From a virus, in the IMG/VR virus record IMGVR_UViG_3300023176_001959, positions 1 through 28,787 of that record: DNA of 28,787 bases, one strand, 5' to 3'. The notes under the pieces are model-generated. The model searched no databases. It was given only the letters and a program-made list of their open reading frames with translations, and was not told where the DNA came from. Positions 4,579 to 26,239 of the stretch are shown in pieces (within the stretch, counting starts at the first letter, position 1; every line of letters starts with the position of its first letter). Both the position numbers and the translations under genes were made by a program.

Positions 4579-5551
4579 TTGTCAATACCACATAATACTT
4601 ACCACTTTTTCTACGAATTCCTTTACCACCGCCACCACCGCCACCGGCAGAACCACCTCCACTATTTCCCCAGTCACCACCATTTCCTGCTGGGTTTGTG
4701 CATAATGTTCCTGCTTGCCTTGCACTGTGACATGTACTTCCACCAGAACCATTAGCGCCAGAATCATTATAGTTTCCACTACTACCGCTAGCACCACTAT
4801 ATTGGAAGTTTGCTCCAGGTATTGGACCAGCATTACCACCACTTCCTCCACCAGCTCCACCACCACCGCCAGCTCCACCTATACCAGCGTTAGTTGTATT
4901 GCAGCAATAACACTCATTATATGAAACAGTTTTACCATTACTGGCACCACCGCCTCCACCACCACCAAGAATTCTTCCACCATTATTAACGTAGATGTTA
5001 GATGAAACTACAAATGCTGGTCCTCCATCTCCCCCATTACCGCCATTTGCGTTACCACCATTTCCACCTTTTCCGTAGATTCTATAGTTGTTTGTGAAGT
5101 AACAGGTTGTACCAGGTCTAGAACCTCCCGGGATATTCAACCCATCATTGCCAGTAGAAGTTGCTGTACAGTTTCCGTTTGTTTGAAGTTCAAAGAAAGC
5201 AGAGTTTACACTGTTCGACTTCAGTGCTTCATTCTCAATACTTCCAACATTTACGGATGCATTATTTCCACTAACAGTCGCAACTGTTTGTCTTGCGTAG
5301 TAGTATATTTTTCCATAAAACTGTGTGAGTTTTATCAAACTACCAGAACCAAAAACTGGTATCCCAGCAAAGTGAACTCCTTGAACTGGGTGTGAAGTAT
5401 CTGTTCTAACTTGGTCAGTACACTTATTTTTCTTCAAATGTGTAGAACCATAATAAAAATCGTTCATCGCAACTTGTGCGGTAGAACCTAAGTTTGTGTA
5501 CTCAGTTCTTAAATCTGAAAGTGCAATTTGACCGCTAGATTGTAAAGTCAT
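4544..5551 (-). CDS. glycine-rich tail-fibre adhesin, gp38-like receptor-binding protein
   Basis: This 335-aa protein starts with MTLQSSGQIALSDLRTEY, an N-terminal module seen in many phage tail-fibre proteins, followed by a beta-rich linker. From about residue 160 it becomes extremely glycine-rich, with runs of GGN/GGA/GGG separated by short variable segments (positions 4600-5080). That is the architecture of gp38-type distal adhesins of T-even-like phages, which fold as a polyglycine-II sandwich with host-binding loops. Several cysteines sit in the putative loops (ECYCCN, STCHSARQ, GTLC). It overlaps the upstream dioxygenase by 4 bases (ATGA). It probably determines host range; attachment directly to the virion rather than to a fibre tip is suggested by the N-terminal module. 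Confidence 0.75.
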   Translation of the reverse strand: MTLQSSGQIALSDLRTEYTNLGSTAQVAMNDFYYGSTHLKKNKCTDQVRTDTSHPVQGVHFAGIPVFGSGSLIKLTQFYGKIYYYARQTVATVSGNNASVNVGSIENEALKSNSVNSAFFELQTNGNCTATSTGNDGLNIPGGSRPGTTCYFTNNYRIYGKGGNGGNANGGNGGDGGPAFVVSSNIYVNNGGRILGGGGGGGASNGKTVSYNECYCCNTTNAGIGGAGGGGGAGGGSGGNAGPIPGANFQYSGASGSSGNYNDSGANGSGGSTCHSARQAGTLCTNPAGNGGDWGNSGGGSAGGGGGGGKGIRRKSGKYYVVLTSGTVAGGTHTF

Positions 5552-6204
5552 TTCTGTATCGAAAAACTATATGGACCAGACTTGAATTTTGATGGAACAA
5601 AATTCATAGAGATTGATACTCTACCATTACCGATATTTATATCATACCCATGATCCAAATGGGATGACCACAAAACTAGGTCTCCTTCTTCAATAAAATC
5701 ACAAACAATATCTTTTTGATTGAACTCTGTGCTCTCTGTGGTATTCAACTCCATGAATGGTTCTACATGAACATTCAAGAATGGATTGGAAAATGCAAGT
5801 GCAGAGTGTATTGATGGGATATAGTTTACATAATAAGTTGCAGACACATATGAGTTTGCGTGACTATGATACCGTTGGAAACCATTCTTATAGCATGTGT
5901 TTATCCAACAGTCCGTTATCATCATTTGCTCAACATCGCGTCCCATGACACCACTCACAAAGTCAAAGGCAGATTCTTCTAAGAAGTTTTTGAAGTCTTG
6001 GTCTGGGATATAATCGAAGAAACCTTTTTCTTGTTCGGATGAATTGAAAAAGTGTTTAAGTTCTGGCGAGATAATACCATCTACTTCCAGTTCCTTATTA
6101 TCTTTAATAAAATCTAGTACAGTTTTTTTGAACTCAATGTGTTTTTTTGGTTCGTACTGTGTCTTCGCGATAGGAACTGGAAACAGAGGATATATGCCTA
6201 ACAT
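5548..6204 (-). CDS. 2OG-Fe(II) oxygenase (TIGR02466/PF13759 type)
   Basis: A 218-aa protein beginning MLGIYPLFPVPI, the LFPxPI N-terminus typical of this family. The iron-ligand region is RYHSHANSYVSATYYV (H113, H115), the distal histidine is in SHLDHGYD (H185), and the 2OG-binding arginine is in GRVSISMNF (R195). This type is common in marine T4-like phages; its substrate is not known. It is the first gene of the accessory operon. Its ATG lies six bases after the U-tract of the terminator that ends the fibre gene, so there is no room for a Shine-Dalgarno sequence and none is seen. It overlaps the adhesin by 4 bases. Confidence 0.88.
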   Translation of the reverse strand: MLGIYPLFPVPIAKTQYEPKKHIEFKKTVLDFIKDNKELEVDGIISPELKHFFNSSEQEKGFFDYIPDQDFKNFLEESAFDFVSGVMGRDVEQMMITDCWINTCYKNGFQRYHSHANSYVSATYYVNYIPSIHSALAFSNPFLNVHVEPFMELNTTESTEFNQKDIVCDFIEEGDLVLWSSHLDHGYDINIGNGRVSISMNFVPSKFKSGPYSFSIQK

Positions 6205-12467: not shown

Positions 12468-12534
12468 GCAGATGAACTTACTGAGCTTCGTTATTTTGCT
12501 CAGTGTATATTCGATACAGTTCATCATCTGCGGG
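12465..12534 (-). other. long inverted repeat joining the antitoxin 3' end to the tRNA 5' end
   Basis: Outer arms 12465-12478 and 12518-12534 (14 bp with a 3-base bulge, CCCGCAGATGA) enclose an inner 7-bp hairpin (12480-12486 / 12498-12504, ACTGAGC). The structure contains the antitoxin stop codon and reaches into the first three bases of tRNA-Ile. In the transcript it could guide 5' processing of the tRNA cluster or protect the mRNA 3' end. There is no U-tract, so it is not a terminator. Confidence 0.6.
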
Positions 12535-12651
12535 TATCATAACTGCGGCAGTACCATCTTCTTTGACGATACCAATACTCTCTCCGTTTTCTACACGTTC
12601 GAGAAGAGAATCAAAGTTCTCTTCCCACTCTTCCAATGTAAATACTTCCAT
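12478..12651 (-). CDS. Phd/YefM-like antitoxin (57 aa)
   Basis: A 57-residue protein: MEVFTLEEWEENFDSLLERV, then ENGESIGIV and GTAAVMIPADDELYRIYTE. This is the core pattern of the Phd/YefM antitoxin fold: a first strand, a helix ending in a VENGE-type turn, a strand, then AAVM and a C-terminal helix. Those proteins dimerise and bind operator DNA. Its ATG overlaps the TAA of the 65-aa gene by one base (TAATG), so translation is coupled. No recognisable toxin (Doc, YoeB or RelE type) lies beside it, so it is either an orphan antitoxin able to neutralise a host toxin or a small regulator. It should be expressed early from the promoter at 12872-12900. Confidence 0.7.
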   Translation of the reverse strand: MEVFTLEEWEENFDSLLERVENGESIGIVKEDGTAAVMIPADDELYRIYTEQNNEAQ

Positions 12652-12848
12652 TATTCTGCTACGGCAAGGTCAGCATACTCGATTTGGTGAGGTTCAAGGT
12701 TAGCAGTGACGACTTCCAGGACATTCATAAACTCCTGAACAGTTTCACACTCTACCATTTTTTCGTTGCCCTCATCACTAAGGAGAAGGAATGAGCGGGT
12801 GCAGACATCAATAACAATGCCCATCACGCATTCGGTTTCTCTGCTCAT
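12651..12848 (-). CDS. small hypothetical protein paired with the Phd-like antitoxin (65 aa)
   Basis: A 65-aa protein with a beta-rich N-terminal half (GIVIDVCTRSFLLLSDEG) and an acidic helical C-terminal half. It is the first gene behind the strong sigma70-like promoter and is coupled to the antitoxin gene by a TAATG overlap. It has no toxin motif that I recognise, and is more acidic than typical mRNA-cleaving toxins. The start at 12848 leaves a leader of about 17 bases without an obvious Shine-Dalgarno sequence. Function unknown. Confidence 0.65.
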   Translation of the reverse strand: MSRETECVMGIVIDVCTRSFLLLSDEGNEKMVECETVQEFMNVLEVVTANLEPHQIEYADLAVAE

Positions 12849-16831: not shown

Positions 16832-18111
16832 TACTTCTTACTTTTTGGACCGAATGTATCTCTGATAAGTTTCATAGAAGTATATGAAGCTTCTGTATCA
16901 AAGTGATGACACAATTCCTTAATCATATATAGACCGCTTGTTTCGGGGTCAAACTCATTCTTTTTAGATAATGTTATCTTTGGTATCTTACATTCTATCA
17001 GATCACCTGCTCTCAGGTTAGTGTTTAGAGGGACAGTCATACTCACTGTCTGGTTAAACAGAGTGTTATATCTCATCAATGCTTGCGACTGATATTCTGC
17101 TGGGTTTGCGTTTGGTGCAGTAGAAACATCATCCTCTAAGGTTCCAACATCAAGAATCTGTGTGATAATTCTAGTTGGCAAGTTACCTAAGTTTTCTGGT
17201 AAGTTAATCTGCTGACCAAGGTTTTCGGTGTTGCTGACATAGTTTTGCAACTTGAATGCACCTTGCTCCTGTGTTGTGAATGTCCAGTCTAGTGGGTTAT
17301 AAAATACACGTTGAGATGCGTATGTTCCGAGTCTAAGTTTTTCTACAAGGTTGTTATTTCTTTCAGTTGTATAGTCAATGATAAGGAAGTCATTGTTTCT
17401 AAAATAGTCTGACTGGTTTCCACCTGCATAGGTATATGTTGCTTTTGGTTTTTGAGCAGCAAGGTTATCTAATGAACGAAACTGAAACCCATCTTGTGTC
17501 TGATAAAAAACATATCCAGCAATACCAGATTGTGGAACTGCCTTTGATGCCAACCAAACTAGAATAGTGAAGGGTTTTCTTAGGTTTCCAATGAAACCAT
17601 ACTTATTTCTAGTTTTATCAACAGTTCCTATTCTCTCTGTTGAAAGATAGTTCTTCAAAATATCAGAAACTGATGTATCAATAGAAGAACCAGTCGAAAA
17701 CTTTTTACCAACTCTTGATGTTTCGTTAGTAATTGCTTCTCTTGATACTAAGTTAAGTTGAAAGGTTTCTCTTTGGGACTGACTTAAAACATTACTAATA
17801 CTTGAAACATAGAGATAGTCTTTCGGTTTAGAAAAATCTAGTCCTTGGTTTGTGGAAGAGTTGCCGTTTATTTTCATCGACAACCTTTCACCACCTCTCA
17901 AAGGAAGACCATTATATATTGTTGAAGGTTCTCCATTTTTATCTGGAATACTTCCACCAGTATCCATTACAATTATCTTTGCTGTAATAGTTGGAGAGAA
18001 AATATCCTCATAATAATCAATGGAATATGTTCCACCTCTAATGTCAGCCGTCTTTGACTTATCGTTCGATTCTAATGTTAGTGTCTGAAACTCTGATGTT
18101 TTTGTTGACAT
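16831..18111 (-). CDS. gp27: gp27-like baseplate hub protein
   Basis: A 426-aa beta-rich protein, close in length to T4 gp27 (391 aa), located directly upstream of the gp5-like gene as expected for the (gp27)3-(gp5)3 hub. Features include GGTYSIDYYEDIFSPTITAK near the start, a SISNVLSQSQRETFQL strand pair, and the terminal GLYMIKELCHHFDTEASYTS segment, which resembles the C-terminal tube-like domain of hub proteins. It overlaps both neighbours by one base (TAATG), so the hub proteins are made in a coupled fashion. The assignment rests on position and fold pattern more than on sequence identity. Confidence 0.75.
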   Translation of the reverse strand: MSTKTSEFQTLTLESNDKSKTADIRGGTYSIDYYEDIFSPTITAKIIVMDTGGSIPDKNGEPSTIYNGLPLRGGERLSMKINGNSSTNQGLDFSKPKDYLYVSSISNVLSQSQRETFQLNLVSREAITNETSRVGKKFSTGSSIDTSVSDILKNYLSTERIGTVDKTRNKYGFIGNLRKPFTILVWLASKAVPQSGIAGYVFYQTQDGFQFRSLDNLAAQKPKATYTYAGGNQSDYFRNNDFLIIDYTTERNNNLVEKLRLGTYASQRVFYNPLDWTFTTQEQGAFKLQNYVSNTENLGQQINLPENLGNLPTRIITQILDVGTLEDDVSTAPNANPAEYQSQALMRYNTLFNQTVSMTVPLNTNLRAGDLIECKIPKITLSKKNEFDPETSGLYMIKELCHHFDTEASYTSMKLIRDTFGPKSKK

Positions 18112-20033
18112 TAGGTATAAGCGAGCTCCGTCAATACTCTATGTTTGATAAGACTATTTAACCCAGCACCAGCGATGATGATAGTGCTACCACCGCTGCC
18201 ACCAATCATCATTGGATTTTGTTGCATCGATTGTGGAGCAGCAACTACCAATGTCTTTCCTTGTCTCTCTGGTGTGATACCACTAGATATTGCTGTCGAT
18301 CTTCCAGTAGAAGAAACCTGAGCAATTGTATTTCCTTTTCCAGGAACAGCAAAAGAAGAACTATTGGGGTTATTTGTGAATAGCAGATATGGAACATATG
18401 GAGAAGGATCAGCATCGCTTCCATATTCACTACTATTATATGTTGTAGTATATTCAAAGTGAAGGTGTGGACCACTAGACTTTCCAGTGCTTCCAACCTG
18501 AGCAAATGATGTCCCTGCTGCAAGTTTTGCAAACGTTTGTGGTTTACTTGCAAGGTGTGCGAAACGAAGTTGGACATTCAGTGAAGGGACCCAAACATCA
18601 AGTACATGCCCATATCCAGTTCCAGGACCGTTAGGGAAGTCTGCTTTATAACCAACCCACTCACAGTCAACTCTCAACGCGATCCAAGTTCCTGAGGGTG
18701 CAGCAATGTCAATACCACCATGCTTTCCACCCCTAGAACCATAAACGTCAGTTACCTCTATATTACTGACACCTCTACCAAGAGATTGTGTTAGAACATC
18801 ACCCGCTACAAATGGTCTAGTTCCCAGTTGTCCTAATGGTTGTGGTCCAGAAACTCCTGTTGTGGCACCCATATTGGGAACAGGAGCAGGAGTGTTGCTC
18901 TTGCCAAGATATGCACTACCCTTGTTGAAACCAAATGTCTGACCATGCCTGGTGGCGTCTTGGGTCATGTCATCATATTTTTGCTCAAAACCTTGACTTC
19001 TAAAGTCTGGTCTATTACCGACAAACTTAGCAGCACTCTGCTGCATAGACTTATTGAGTAAAGCATTTGCAACTCTATCTAAACCATTAGGACTTGCACC
19101 GTTACCACCAAATTTTTTAATATGTGCAATTGCGGTCTCTCTGTTTACAACTTTATTCCAGTCAGCAGTTTTACCATATTCTCCAACTGGTGCATATTGG
19201 TTTCTGGCAAGTATCTCTTGTCTTGCTGTTCTGCCACTATACCCCATTCTATTGTATATTGACTGAGCAACATCAACAGCACCTTGGGTATTAGAGTTCT
19301 CGTATAAAGATATCAGCGCAAGTAACCAGAAGTCTGCACTTCCACCAGTTGCTGGTGTTTGTGGTCCAGGTTTTCCAGGAACTTGGTTATCATCGCCAGT
19401 AGTAGGTTCATCATCATCACCAAATTTAAAAGGTTCTATCAAAAGATTCAGAGCATCTCTGAAATCGATTTCCATTCTGTTGAAAGTACCTTTGACTTTT
19501 TCTAGTTGAGAATTTATCTGCTTTCCTGCTGCAGAAAAGTTAAATGACATCAAGGTTCTTGCAAATATAACAATCAAACCACCAAGTTCTTGCAATAGTC
19601 GTGTCGTGTTTGATGTAAATGAAGATAATGTTTGAGTTAGTTTTACTATCCTTTCACCAAGTTGTTTGGAGAATGATACAATGATTGGCATATTGTTCAC
19701 AATCCAACCAGTCAAGGTTAAACCAATCGCTTTCAATATTCTACCTAAGAATCCTTGTGTTGAACTCGTTATTGCTTTTCCTATCTTTGAAATTGGAGAC
19801 GTTGCTTTTGATGCCTCAACAAGATCTTCTTGGTTCTTTCTACGAATAGCATCTCTTCTCAGACGATAGATGTTTTCTCTCTTAGCAATAGATTCTTTTT
19901 TAAATACAGACTGTCTCTGTAAGGTCTTTACAACACTCTTAGAAAGTTTATTAGTTTCCTCTGCTTTATTTTCAAGTCTAGTTGCAGACTTTAAAAGTTT
20001 AATTGTAACTAGTCGTATGAGTGGTAATGCCAT
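18111..20033 (-). CDS. tail protein with tape-measure-like N-terminus, SleB-like hydrolase and M23 endopeptidase
   Basis: A 640-aa protein in four parts. Residues 1-90 are a basic coiled coil; 93-165 are hydrophobic (LTLTGWIVNNMPIIV); 235-330 look like a SleB/Hydrolase_2 cell-wall hydrolase (ALISLYENSN with probable catalytic E245, then VAQSIYNRM). Residues 425-545 are a complete M23 zinc endopeptidase: HGGID (H438, D442), FAHLA (H493), and HLHFE (H523, H525). The two enzyme domains could open the peptidoglycan during DNA entry, replacing the lysozyme missing from the gp5-like hub. It lies one base after the tape-measure candidate, with which it shares the LTGW hydrophobic segment, and just upstream of gp27. 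Confidence 0.85.
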   Translation of the reverse strand: MALPLIRLVTIKLLKSATRLENKAEETNKLSKSVVKTLQRQSVFKKESIAKRENIYRLRRDAIRRKNQEDLVEASKATSPISKIGKAITSSTQGFLGRILKAIGLTLTGWIVNNMPIIVSFSKQLGERIVKLTQTLSSFTSNTTRLLQELGGLIVIFARTLMSFNFSAAGKQINSQLEKVKGTFNRMEIDFRDALNLLIEPFKFGDDDEPTTGDDNQVPGKPGPQTPATGGSADFWLLALISLYENSNTQGAVDVAQSIYNRMGYSGRTARQEILARNQYAPVGEYGKTADWNKVVNRETAIAHIKKFGGNGASPNGLDRVANALLNKSMQQSAAKFVGNRPDFRSQGFEQKYDDMTQDATRHGQTFGFNKGSAYLGKSNTPAPVPNMGATTGVSGPQPLGQLGTRPFVAGDVLTQSLGRGVSNIEVTDVYGSRGGKHGGIDIAAPSGTWIALRVDCEWVGYKADFPNGPGTGYGHVLDVWVPSLNVQLRFAHLASKPQTFAKLAAGTSFAQVGSTGKSSGPHLHFEYTTTYNSSEYGSDADPSPYVPYLLFTNNPNSSSFAVPGKGNTIAQVSSTGRSTAISSGITPERQGKTLVVAAPQSMQQNPMMIGGSGGSTIIIAGAGLNSLIKHRVLTELAYT

Positions 20034-20034
20034 G

Positions 20035-21345
20035 TTATACTACTACGTTATAATTTGCCATAGAATAATAAACATAGAAGTTGTCAATATTCGAAGAAGC
20101 AATATCTGGAATAGTATTAGCAGAAGGATTTAGATCTGTAGGAACTTCTCTCTGCCCCTGTTGCCCACCAGCGGTGACTACAACATTAGTTTCTGGTTCT
20201 GGTGTAGGTCCAACACTAGCAGCTCTTGCTGATGCAGTTGTTGCTACTGGTTGAACATTTGCAGAAGTTGATATAGAAGGTGCTGCAAACATCTTGGAGA
20301 AGTCCATTCCCTCATACAATGAACCCTGTTGTGCTTGGGTGAAAATATTCTGCCCCAAGTTGCTCATTGGCGTAAAACCAAAGATAGAAGCACCAAGTTT
20401 TACTGGGAATGGAAGAGGAAGTTTTGATAAACCATAAACAAAAGTAGCACCAGATGCAGCACCAGAAACTGCTTGCCCTGGTGAAGCACCATTGAACATA
20501 TTGGCACCAGCACCAAAAATAGTTTGACCTAGTGGATTTGTTGTAAGTGACTTTCCAAAGTTAAAGAGTAAGTTTGTTGGTGAAAATGATTGCTGTTGAT
20601 TATTGTTGTTAGTATTACTACCTGCACCATTATCATCTCCACTACCATTTCCATTATTATCTCTCTTAAAAACTCCTCTGACTTTATCTATTGTACCTTG
20701 AATAAAGTCTCTAAGAAATTGTATTGGTTTTTTAAATAGACCGTTTCTGATAGACTGAGAAACTCTTGACGTAGTTCTACTAATAGAACCAACAATATCA
20801 GTAAGTGCCTGACCAATGTTTGAAAATATATTTTTTGCGGACTCGAATACTTTATCAAAGGTCTGCTTTGCTTCTCTGAGTCTATCAATCGTAAACTTAG
20901 ACGCTGCTTTAATACCAGATATTATCTTTGGACCTAACCATCCAGTCAGTAATAGGGTAAAGAACCCCATCAATCCTTTGAGTGAAGACTGTGCCTTTAC
21001 TGCTGCTTTTTGTGCTGGTTCAATAGTAGCATTTTGTATCTTCCTTTCAACTAAGGATTCTTGCCCTTCTCTTAGTTGAAGTTGAGCAGCTCTTCTTTCT
21101 CTTTCCTGCTCTATTGCTTCCTTCTGTCTTTCTAAGAAAGCATTTGTGGTGACAGTTTGGGATATACTTTGCAGTGATGTGCTCAGACTTACCATCTGAG
21201 CAGATATTCTATCGAGTCTAACGCTTAGACCGCCAACTAAATTCGATACTGCCGCAAGAACTTGTTCGTTTTTCTGATCGACAGTAGTATCCACTTCCCT
21301 CTGAGAGGGTGAGTTATTCAATATTGGCGACCTCATTTTAGCCAT
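20035..21345 (-). CDS. probable tape measure / baseplate hub protein (gp29-like)
   Basis: A 436-aa protein: an N-terminal Gln/Arg/Glu-rich coiled coil (residues 25-118), a hydrophobic segment (122-142, FFTLLLTGWLGPKII), a second helical stretch to about 225, an Asn/Gly/Gln-rich linker, and a Gly/Ala-rich C-terminal half. Coiled coil plus hydrophobic segment directly after the tail-chaperone genes is the usual signature of a tape measure protein. T4 gp29 is 590 aa; this one is shorter, so tail length may depend on it together with the next gene, which repeats the LTGW segment. Its ATG lies inside the 57-codon ORF (8-base overlap). Confidence 0.65.
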   Translation of the reverse strand: MAKMRSPILNNSPSQREVDTTVDQKNEQVLAAVSNLVGGLSVRLDRISAQMVSLSTSLQSISQTVTTNAFLERQKEAIEQERERRAAQLQLREGQESLVERKIQNATIEPAQKAAVKAQSSLKGLMGFFTLLLTGWLGPKIISGIKAASKFTIDRLREAKQTFDKVFESAKNIFSNIGQALTDIVGSISRTTSRVSQSIRNGLFKKPIQFLRDFIQGTIDKVRGVFKRDNNGNGSGDDNGAGSNTNNNNQQQSFSPTNLLFNFGKSLTTNPLGQTIFGAGANMFNGASPGQAVSGAASGATFVYGLSKLPLPFPVKLGASIFGFTPMSNLGQNIFTQAQQGSLYEGMDFSKMFAAPSISTSANVQPVATTASARAASVGPTPEPETNVVVTAGGQQGQREVPTDLNPSANTIPDIASSNIDNFYVYYSMANYNVVV

Positions 21346-21511
21346 TTGCCTGATTCTTTAAGTTTTCTTCTTCAATGAAGTGTTGAAGTAACGTAACATA
21401 AACTTCCCTTTCCCAGGGTATCATGTTTTCAAGCTCTGTTAATGAATATTTATGGTGCTGAATCAAAGCAAAGTTAGTCTTGAAGTATGACTCAAGGTTT
21501 TCATGAGCCAT
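21338..21511 (-). CDS. tail-chaperone extension ORF (57 codons), probably expressed by -1 frameshift
   Basis: A short ORF with ATG at 21511, two bases after the gp26-like stop codon: MAHENLESYFKTNFALIQHH, then KYSLTELENMIPWEREVYV. The LTELENMIPWERE segment is compact and charged, like the C-terminal T part of GT-type tail assembly chaperones. It can be made alone by reinitiation, but a slippery site at the end of gp26 places it in the -1 frame of that gene with no intervening stop (CGG GTG AGT ATG). The fusion product would be 299 aa. It lies immediately before the tape-measure candidate. Confidence 0.8.
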   Translation of the reverse strand: MAHENLESYFKTNFALIQHHKYSLTELENMIPWEREVYVTLLQHFIEEENLKNQANG

Positions 21512-21526
21512 ACTCACCCGAAAAAA
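21483..21526 (-). promoter_or_regulatory. programmed -1 ribosomal frameshift signal
   Basis: On the minus strand the gp26-like gene ends GCT TTT TTC GGG TGA. T TTT TTC (21520-21526) is a canonical -1 slippery heptamer in the correct frame. Four bases later a 12-bp hairpin begins (21504-21515 paired with 21483-21494, 9-base loop, two G-U pairs). Slippage leads into the 57-codon ORF. Confidence 0.75.
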
Positions 21527-22236
21527 GCAGTTAGTCCCTCCAAAACAACATCACTATCCACACCAGTCTTTGGATTAGTTATTGTAATAGTATGAGAAAG
21601 TTTTGGCATTGTCTCAAAGAACTTTTCAATTTCTTTGAACTGCTTGGAACTCAACTGCTCCAAGAATGCACTCAGTTCTTTCTTCGAATACTCGGAAGCA
21701 GACCAAGACTCCTCCTCATTGTACACCTGATCGATACAACTTGAAATAAGTTCGAAGGTGTCATCAACAGTGATTTCTTCATTCTCGACACTGAAGTTTG
21801 TCTTGATGAACTCATTCATCGATGGATACTTCATTCTCAAACTCAACTGATCGTCAAGTTTAATATCCCTATTGTGTTCTGCACTCACCTGAACCTTAAT
21901 TTCATCTAGGTTGATGAAAGTTGGTACTTGGGTGACACCATCATCGGGGCAAGTGATAAGAACTTCAATGTCCTCACCAACAGACTTACCGCGAATATTC
22001 AAGAACAAATACTCGATGTCAAATGTAGAGAGTTGGTCTACTTTAACACCACGAGTCAGAATGCAGTTTGAGATAACATCTTTTACTGCTCTTGCAATTT
22101 GCTTAGGATCCTCAGTCTCCATCGCAATGATAAGGATCTTTTCTTCTTTAACTAAGAAGGGGCGGTATTTTACTTTCTTTTTATTCGAAGGCAACTCAAT
22201 TTCATACGTCGGAGTCGCAATGGTTGGTAAAGGCAT
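21514..22236 (-). CDS. gp26: gp26-like baseplate/tail assembly protein
   Basis: A 240-aa protein of the T4 baseplate gp26 family: KVKYRPFLVKEEKILIIAME near the start, the FDIEYLFLNIRGKSVGE core (about residues 88-104), then a VLITCPDDG turn and a helical C-terminus. T4 gp26 is 208 aa. The protein ends two codons after a slippery sequence, giving a normal short form and a predicted 299-aa extended form. It is preceded by a CTAAATA motif 27 bases upstream. Given its place just before the tape-measure candidate, it probably acts as an assembly chaperone rather than as a permanent hub part; this is inference. Confidence 0.8.
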   Translation of the reverse strand: MPLPTIATPTYEIELPSNKKKVKYRPFLVKEEKILIIAMETEDPKQIARAVKDVISNCILTRGVKVDQLSTFDIEYLFLNIRGKSVGEDIEVLITCPDDGVTQVPTFINLDEIKVQVSAEHNRDIKLDDQLSLRMKYPSMNEFIKTNFSVENEEITVDDTFELISSCIDQVYNEEESWSASEYSKKELSAFLEQLSSKQFKEIEKFFETMPKLSHTITITNPKTGVDSDVVLEGLTAFFG

Positions 22237-22277: not shown

Positions 22278-23090
22278 TTAGAGAACCCTTTCTCTTGCAA
22301 CTGGTCTTGATGTAAGTTTATCATTGACAATTGCTTCACCTGGTCCAACATTAGGAGGTCTAAATCTCACACCACCAGCACCTGCTGCACCAGCAGACAT
22401 TGGAACAAAACCACCACCTTGTGAACTACCATTCAAGAAGTTGAAACCCTTGAATGTCATGTCTAGGTTATTATCAGACCCGCTGTAAACAGCATAACTT
22501 GAAGTCTTTCCACAAACATATCTGTCAAAGTTGAATGATGCACTAACTTTTAAGATATCAGAGTTTGCATATGATACTGGTGTAGAGTTCAATGCAATGG
22601 GGAATAACCCATAGAATGTATATTCTAACTGCTTATTGTAGTCTCTGTCAAACTTGACAATTTTTGTACTATCACACTTATATTCTTCTGGATATCTCAT
22701 TCTGAAAAAGTATCCATCTCTCGAAGGAGAAACACCAGAACCAAAAGAGATAAACTCTATCCAGTGCTCCAAGAACTTCAACGATTTGTACGCATTGTCA
22801 ACATAGAACTCCAAGTCAATTTGTGTGAACAAACGGGTGTGTGCCATCTTCTCAACGACACCCATGTAGTTTCCAGAAATGTCTGCTGTTCCCAAAGAAC
22901 TTCCAGGCAGAACGGCAGAATTGCACAGAAGACCAACACTCTCGCCAATGAAGCGAGCATCAATTCCTCTATATGCAAGGTGTCCTCTCAGTGGGAAAGA
23001 CAAACCACCAAAAATAACTTCGTAGTGTGAAGTTTGTGCTAAGTTAGTTACGAGTGGTTTGAACTCTGATATCTTTCTTGGAGTAGGCAC
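22278..23090 (-). CDS. gp54: baseplate tail-tube initiator (gp54-like)
   Basis: A 270-aa protein with a tail-tube-type fold pattern: SHYEVIFGGLSFPLRGHLA, later YMGVVEKMAHTRLFTQIDLEFYV with FLEHWIEFI, then a QLEYTFYGLFPIALNSTPVSY segment and DILKVSASFNFDRYV. That order matches gp19/gp54-type tube and initiator proteins (T4 gp54, 320 aa). The last 45 residues are Gly/Ala-rich. The start codon is GTG at 23090, without a clear Shine-Dalgarno sequence, 31 bases from a CTAAATA motif. gp54 is the more likely name than tail tube gp19, because it neighbours baseplate genes. Confidence 0.65.
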   Translation of the reverse strand: MPTPRKISEFKPLVTNLAQTSHYEVIFGGLSFPLRGHLAYRGIDARFIGESVGLLCNSAVLPGSSLGTADISGNYMGVVEKMAHTRLFTQIDLEFYVDNAYKSLKFLEHWIEFISFGSGVSPSRDGYFFRMRYPEEYKCDSTKIVKFDRDYNKQLEYTFYGLFPIALNSTPVSYANSDILKVSASFNFDRYVCGKTSSYAVYSGSDNNLDMTFKGFNFLNGSSQGGGFVPMSAGAAGAGGVRFRPPNVGPGEAIVNDKLTSRPVARERVL

Positions 23091-25009: not shown

Positions 25010-25660
25010 ATGAGTTATTTCAGAGAACTTCCAGACTTAGAATACCAGTCAGTAGTAAGTGATAGAAACTCATCACTCGACTATGTAACTGTCAAGAACT
25101 TATTCAGAAGGGCAAAACTTCGTGACGACTTACAGAATGTATTCACGCTCTTCAATAAGTATCAGATAAGAGATGGTGCAAGACCAGACACAGTTGCAGA
25201 AGAAATCTATGGTTCACCAGACTATGACTGGGTGGTCCTTATGTCAGCAAATATCACTAACGTAAGAGACCAATGGCCACTTTCTGATAGAGACTTGTAT
25301 CGCTTCTCAGAAGAGAAGTACACTATTCAGAAACTAACTGACGTAAAATATTATGAAACAACAGAAGTCAAAGACTCTTCTGGAAGACTTATTCTTCCTG
25401 CTGGGAAAGTAGTAGATAAGACTTTCACTATTCCAGACCCATCCAATCCTCTTGCAACTCTGAACCCAACAAGAGGTGTTTCTAACTACGAATACGAAGT
25501 TAAAAAGAACGAAGAGAAGCGTGGTATTTACCTTCTAAAACCAGGATATCTCCAACAGTACATCGAAGACTTTAGGTCAGCAATGTACTATCAGAGATCA
25601 TCTCAGTATGTGAACGATAGACTTATAAGAACTGAAAATACTAGAAATACTTCACCATAG
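25010..25660 (+). CDS. gp53: gp53-like baseplate wedge protein
   Basis: A 216-aa protein (T4 gp53, 196 aa). The conserved core is NLFRRAKLRDDLQNVFTLF, then YQIRDGARPDTVAEEIYGS and DYDWVVLMSANITNVRDQWP, the LysM-like wedge domain typical of gp53; the C-terminal YQRSSQY part is family-typical. In T4 it joins wedges to the hub during baseplate assembly. It is the last gene of the plus-strand operon, and its final 9 bases overlap the end of the convergent Mom-like gene. No terminator is seen between them. Confidence 0.88.
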   Translation: MSYFRELPDLEYQSVVSDRNSSLDYVTVKNLFRRAKLRDDLQNVFTLFNKYQIRDGARPDTVAEEIYGSPDYDWVVLMSANITNVRDQWPLSDRDLYRFSEEKYTIQKLTDVKYYETTEVKDSSGRLILPAGKVVDKTFTIPDPSNPLATLNPTRGVSNYEYEVKKNEEKRGIYLLKPGYLQQYIEDFRSAMYYQRSSQYVNDRLIRTENTRNTSP

Positions 25661-26239
25661 TAGTTTCAACTTCTTATCAAACATCATAACGTAACGGTGC
25701 TTGCGGGAGCGGTCTTTCCATTCTCCCTCAGCACCTTTTATTTTGCCGCGTGAATGTTTGGTGCCGTCGGCGTAGTAGAAGTCTTTCTTAGCATCTGTAA
25801 GCCCACAATATTTAAAGTTGCAAGCACGATAAATTGTGCCGTCATGATACTCAGAATCAGCATAAGAAATGATCGCTGAGACTTCTGTGTCCTTGCGAAA
25901 CTGTCTAATCGCTTTTGCAACGAACCAAGAAGTAATGTTGTACTCTTGTGACTGCGTATCTGGGTGGATGCAGAGTCTAGAGAGTTCGAAGAGTCCTTGC
26001 TGTTCATTTCTTCCAAGACCGAATGCTCCTTGCGCTACTTCTGGAACAGGGAGTCCAGTGAATATAATCACTCCCTGAATACCACCAATATTTAGAGGTG
26101 AGAAGTCGTTTTTCTTATAAAGACCGTAGTTATATCCTGACTTGAAACCTTTTGAAATATCTTTAAGATAATGAAACCGCAGAAGTAACTCTGCGGCTTC
26201 GGTCTTACTTACTCTGTCAATGTAATAGTCAGTTTTCAC
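25652..26239 (-). CDS. Mom-like GNAT-fold protein, possible DNA-modification enzyme
   Basis: A 195-aa protein. The core GLFELSRLCIHPDTQSQEYN, NITSWFVAKAIRQFRK and AIISYADSEYHDGTIYRACNF matches the Mom group of GNAT-related proteins, including the YADSEYHDGTIYRA segment. Phage Mu Mom makes a hypermodified adenine (carbamoylmethyl) that protects DNA from restriction, so a DNA-modification role is plausible, though some relatives are annotated only as acyltransferases. It starts with GTG at 26239, overlapping the stop of a 22-codon ORF by 4 bases (GTGA). It is co-transcribed with gp32 and convergent with gp53. Confidence 0.72.
   Translation of the reverse strand: MKTDYYIDRVSKTEAAELLLRFHYLKDISKGFKSGYNYGLYKKNDFSPLNIGGIQGVIIFTGLPVPEVAQGAFGLGRNEQQGLFELSRLCIHPDTQSQEYNITSWFVAKAIRQFRKDTEVSAIISYADSEYHDGTIYRACNFKYCGLTDAKKDFYYADGTKHSRGKIKGAEGEWKDRSRKHRYVMMFDKKLKLLW

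Follow-up and report, generated by a model that had tools for sequence, protein, structure and literature searches.

Results

On the minus strand of the DNA analysed here, a 28.8-kb IMG/VR virus record (28,787 nucleotides; hereafter the window) with tail genes of the T4 type, a gene similar to gp26 of phage T4 is followed by a short gp51 open reading frame (ORF), and the question raised by this locus is whether the two are separate genes or a single gene read in two ways. The virus appears to be a T4-type phage related to the phages of ocean cyanobacteria. The comparisons given below make it very probable that the gp26/gp51 locus produces a T4-type tail assembly chaperone in two forms from one mRNA through a programmed -1 frameshift. 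The features on which this proposal is built are as follows.

21514..22236, minus strand: gp26-like gene, 240 amino acids, predicted to encode the short tail assembly chaperone, TAC-N (PF12322 T4_baseplate, 1.1e-75; phrog_150, 7e-81)
21338..21511, minus strand: gp51 ORF, 57 codons
21520..21526, minus strand: candidate slippery heptamer T_TTT_TTC, in the gp26 frame
21514..21516, minus strand: 0-frame stop codon TGA, one codon past the heptamer
21338..21520, minus strand: extension in the -1 frame, R-V-S followed by the 57-codon gp51 ORF, predicted to supply the C-terminus of the 299-amino-acid long form, TAC-NC (phrog_634, 4.8e-27; C-terminal end of phrog_150, 4.6e-5)

The 3′ end of the gp26-like gene reads GCT TTT TTC GGG TGA, then GT and ATG, and the junction as a whole is GGAGGGACTAACTGC-TTTTTTC-GGG-TGA-GT-ATG. 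In the -1 frame, the sequence past the slip site encodes FF-RVSMAHENLESY... and spans the whole gp51 ORF up to a stop codon at 21340-21338. The predicted products are a short form of 240 amino acids and a long form of 239+60 = 299 amino acids. The sequence-only reading that first proposed this frameshift had the coordinates, both product lengths and the -1 frame correct, as ascertained by re-reading the minus strand.

The candidate slip site is conserved among gp26 relatives

Relatives of gp26 were gathered from IMG/VR and from named phages, including proteins down to ~24% identity, and the junction was read in 260 loci, of which 184 were retained after removal of near-duplicates; these relatives share ancestry, and the counts from them are therefore not independent. 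KVP40 gp26 used as query returned KVP40-like contigs only. Of the 184 non-redundant relatives, 179 carry a T_TTT_TTN heptamer at a distance of 0-6 nucleotides (nt) from the gp26 stop, and the same motif occurred elsewhere in gp26 at 16 of 42,558 codon positions. In a Rhizobium phage the tract is present but lies further from the stop. When synonymous codons were resampled within each gene (1000 runs), the slip site was present in a mean of 76 and a maximum of 95 of the 184. This result bears on the simplest explanation without any slippage, namely a conserved Phe-Phe C-terminus and a chance juxtaposition of two genes. The FF is indeed a conserved C-terminal protein motif that raises the odds of T-rich codons, but resampling that kept it gave only the 76/184 mentioned above, and this explanation is scarcely credible. 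In addition, the codon that precedes the pair of slip codons ended in T in 179/179 cases against 111.5 expected, and the residue it encodes varies among Ser, Ala, Asp, Asn, Gly and Thr. Shared descent alone is an unlikely cause of this pattern because the constraint acts at the nucleotide level. The candidate slip site is conserved far beyond chance.

The -1 frame past the slip site was open for 56-68 codons in 176/176 complete cases. Relatives that lack the heptamer or that carry the second ORF in another frame, which the sequence-only reading had named as evidence against a frameshift, are not the pattern seen; the heptamer and the -1 frame are kept, and the joining of gp26 to the 57-codon ORF by a programmed -1 frameshift is supported.

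The gp51 ORF lacks an early start codon in some relatives

A rival to the frameshift is that gp51 is a separate protein of 57 amino acids, whose translation begins when ribosomes that have stopped at the gp26 TGA start anew at the ATG 2 nt further on. The TGA-GT-ATG spacing in the window suits reinitiation, and gp51 is entered in databases as a gene in its own right. Among the relatives, however, the first 10 codons of the second ORF contain no ATG in 54/176 and none of ATG, GTG or TTG in 38/176, and the protein is conserved upstream of the position where such a start would lie, the residues just past the slip site being shared across relatives (e.g. R-[IV]-A-L-x-H). The missing starts together with these conserved residues point to a fusion, and therefore not to a separate protein, in the phages without a start in the second ORF, and argue strongly against separate initiation in the 38 start-less relatives. 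A separate gp51 also leaves the conservation of the heptamer unexplained, and the Shine-Dalgarno (SD)-like element described below is spaced for the slip site and not for the ATG. Overall, we consider a separate gp51 very unlikely as the explanation of the locus. In 16/16 examined annotated records with the gp26-gp51 arrangement the junction was not marked as a frameshift, and gp51 was given as a separate gene, with a late start, or omitted; for instance, the annotated start of gp51 in S-RIM2 is ~50 nt late, and in Syn10 gp51 is unannotated.

Elements flanking the slip site resemble a dnaX-type signal

Upstream of the heptamer we found an element that is absent from the sequence-only reading.

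21536..21541, minus strand: SD-like GGAGGG, its GGAGG core separated by 10 nt from the slip site (codon-choice tests in relatives)

In the relatives the element takes the form GGAGG or GAGG, and Glu at this site uses GAG in 130/170 cases against 49.5 expected. GGAGG itself is present in 66/179 against a mean of 15 and a maximum of 26 on synonymous resampling (500 runs), and an SD-like sequence with suitable spacing, both as defined in PMC4066793, is present in 152/179 against a resampled mean of 101 and maximum of 125. These tests indicate that the SD-like element is held by synonymous codon choice. PMC4066793, which gives general rules for such signals, describes SD-like sequences and spacing, matched by the window element, as experimentally stimulatory.

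Downstream of the heptamer, a hairpin is predicted.

21483..21515, minus strand: hairpin, starting 4-5 nt past the heptamer (fold; compensatory pair in 60 relatives)

The 12-bp hairpin and 4-base spacer described in the sequence-only reading hold if the closing G.U pair is counted; otherwise the fold has an 11-bp core and the spacer is 5. Taken alone the window hairpin is modestly unusual (z = -1.95; 10/200 shuffles as stable), and 42-nt folds of 60 close relatives gave a mean z of -3.7 with 55/60 below -2. Furthermore, the stem pair 20/34 changes together (T-A/G-C), as GCT..GAG in 38/60 and GCG..GCG in 15/60, with ~8 paired events on the tree. The match between the two sides is not an effect of codon usage, because one side is a Glu/Ala replacement. 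The folds and the paired changes indicate that the hairpin is real but clade-specific.

The -1 signal of E. coli dnaX consists of an upstream SD, the heptamer A_AAA_AAG and a downstream hairpin. The putative SD-like element, heptamer and hairpin of the window form a dnaX-type -1 signal, with the SD likewise ~10 nt before the heptamer and the hairpin downstream of it. The window differs from dnaX in that its heptamer is U_UUU_UUC, its shift makes the longer product and its hairpin is not found in all clades.

The T tract could also be slipped on by RNA polymerase rather than by the ribosome, giving mRNAs of altered length. Such slippage was shown on an 11-base A tract in PMC4256274, and relatives of the Melnitz-3 group have 8 T in a row. 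The tract in the window is of 6 T, however, and is capped by C in 152/179 relatives, and slippage by the ribosome accords with both the SD-like element and the covarying hairpin, which makes a polymerase origin very unlikely.

Proposed mechanism and the points that weigh against it

The slip site, the frame, the protein extension, the SD-like element and, in the clade of the window, the hairpin are conserved. In the frameshift that we propose from them, most ribosomes would end at the gp26 TGA and yield the 240-amino-acid short form, and slippage would occur at a rate at which a minority move back one base on U_UUU_UUC, read the gp51 ORF and yield the 299-amino-acid long form. Pairing of GGAGG with 16S rRNA 10 nt upstream of the slip site and the hairpin 4-5 nt downstream of it would both aid slippage. 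By analogy with gpG/gpGT of phage lambda, the long and short forms may jointly cover the tape measure protein and bring in the tail tube protein as the tail assembles.

Some observations weigh against this proposal. Several clades show no hairpin (mean z about -0.25), and the averages of the S-RIM2 and Melnitz groups lie near zero. In the window, a restart at the ATG could add free gp51. The slip site is missing in the in-frame fusion L006, in the Vibrio phages L093 and L094, and in the T4-group phage L096.

In L006:3001-3891 (IMGVR_UViG_3300049043_000112), a 2-base difference from relatives joins gp26 and gp51 in frame into a protein of 297 amino acids and destroys the slip site; this may be either a real fusion or an assembly error. 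A second gp26 copy, as in a T4-like pair, was sought in its 236-kb record and not found, only one copy being present. Other in-frame gp26-gp51 fusions were not found in 77 further loci searched with the fused protein, all of which keep the T tract. The gp26-gp51 junctions of Vibrio phage 1.244.A (L093) and Vibrio phage D492 (L094) lack the slip heptamer, and the junction of L093 has an overlapping stop/start TAATG, which suggests a different way of making gp51.

We lean towards a modular signal, in which the heptamer and the SD-like pause before it would be ancient and almost invariant and the hairpin would be a clade-specific addition. Lineages would have abandoned it by three routes: a separate long gene (T4), an in-frame fusion (L006) and, in some Vibrio phages, a lost slip site with overlapping stop and start codons.

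Relationship to T4 gp26 and gp51 and to known chaperones

Phage T4 has genes 26 and 51 as two separate genes without a slip site. T4-group gp26 matches the gp26 family profile (E=1e-18), and in hhalign profile comparison the N-terminal part of T4-group gp51 matches the gp26 profile (E=1e-6) and its C-terminus the extension profile (E=2e-4). Thus, T4-group gp51 is made of a gp26-like part and the same extension, and the fused 299-amino-acid form resembles T4 gp51, a comparison that the sequence-only reading had proposed. On these profiles, T4 seems to have one gene for the short form and another for the long form, with gp51 as a permanently encoded long form. Vladimirov, Gautam and Davidson (2022) reportedly found frameshifting to be conserved in several T4-like groups and T4 itself to rely on genes 26 and 51 as separate units.

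The L006 protein, which is naturally fused, was modelled with a mean predicted local distance difference test (pLDDT) score of 72.8 and scores above 90 over most of residues 1-110. In a fold search of this model against PDB the top two matches were both chains of 2ob9, the HK97 tail assembly chaperone, and were not significant (E=0.86); a search against viral models brought up gp26/gp51-type baseplate hub proteins. Of the features expected of a chaperone locus, a shared N-terminus of the two predicted forms and a tail tube gene upstream were seen; the downstream gene, of 436 amino acids, has no family match.

The likeness to lambda G/GT noted in the sequence-only reading was borne out: tail tube, chaperone, -1 frameshift extension and a putative tape measure stand in the order known from lambda, short and long forms are predicted as in lambda, and the arrangement would work alike. 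Lambda has the slip site G_GGA_AAG and a non-contractile tail, whereas the window has T_TTT_TTC and T4-type tail genes.

Gene neighbourhood

The genes flanking the chaperone locus are as follows.

22278..23090, minus strand: gene for the tail tube protein, located 5′ of the chaperone gene (Pfam PF23849, 4e-19; phrog_45, 2.6e-39)
20035..21345, minus strand: gene of 436 amino acids in the tape-measure position

The order on the minus strand is tail tube, gp26, gp51 ORF, 436-amino-acid gene, 640-amino-acid gene, tail protein and gp5-like gene, and the 640-amino-acid gene carries an M23 peptidase domain. The sequence-only reading had a tape-measure gene next downstream of the frameshift; the position fits, and the 436-amino-acid gene had no Pfam or PHROG family match, its sole similarity being 33% over 22% of its length to phage S-SRM01. 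From its position, it is a putative tape measure. The 436- and 640-amino-acid neighbours (window 18111-21345) are weakly similar to each other (E=0.002) around a stretch of hydrophobic helix, which may represent a tape-measure-like region that was split or duplicated.

Elsewhere in the window, small ORFs lie beside three tRNA genes at 12478-12848, including a Phd/YefM-antitoxin-like ORF (1.2e-4, below the cut-off) and a DUF7294 ORF, with no toxin evident. A Mom-family protein (1.2e-24) at 25652-26239 is a possible DNA-modification gene, and three genes at 926-2120 and 5548-6204 are 2OG-Fe(II) oxygenase- or hydroxylase-like.

Discussion

The sequence-only reading took a chaperone frameshift to be undescribed in T4-type phages. 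In fact, Vladimirov et al (2022; Virology 566:9-15) had already reported it in T4-like phages, as cited in PMC10885494 and PMC12846349, the latter of which also treats poly-T slippery sequences as known in these phages. Literature searches on cyanophage chaperone frameshifts found nothing beyond the T4-like reports. The frameshift in the window is thus a well-supported further case of the T4-like chaperone frameshifting already described. New detail may lie in its SD-like element, in the clade-specific hairpin with its covarying pair and in the relatives that form exceptions. In Vandenendeviridae, as described in PMC12846349, a -1 chaperone shift likewise occurs at a poly-T site and the extension is routinely misannotated as its own gene; that is a different phage family, with the slip motif GTTTTT.

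These findings mean that public annotations would miss the long chaperone form. The conserved signal would make a direct test easy in culturable cyanophages, and the contrast with the two genes of T4 would allow a test of how the ratio of short to long chaperone evolved.
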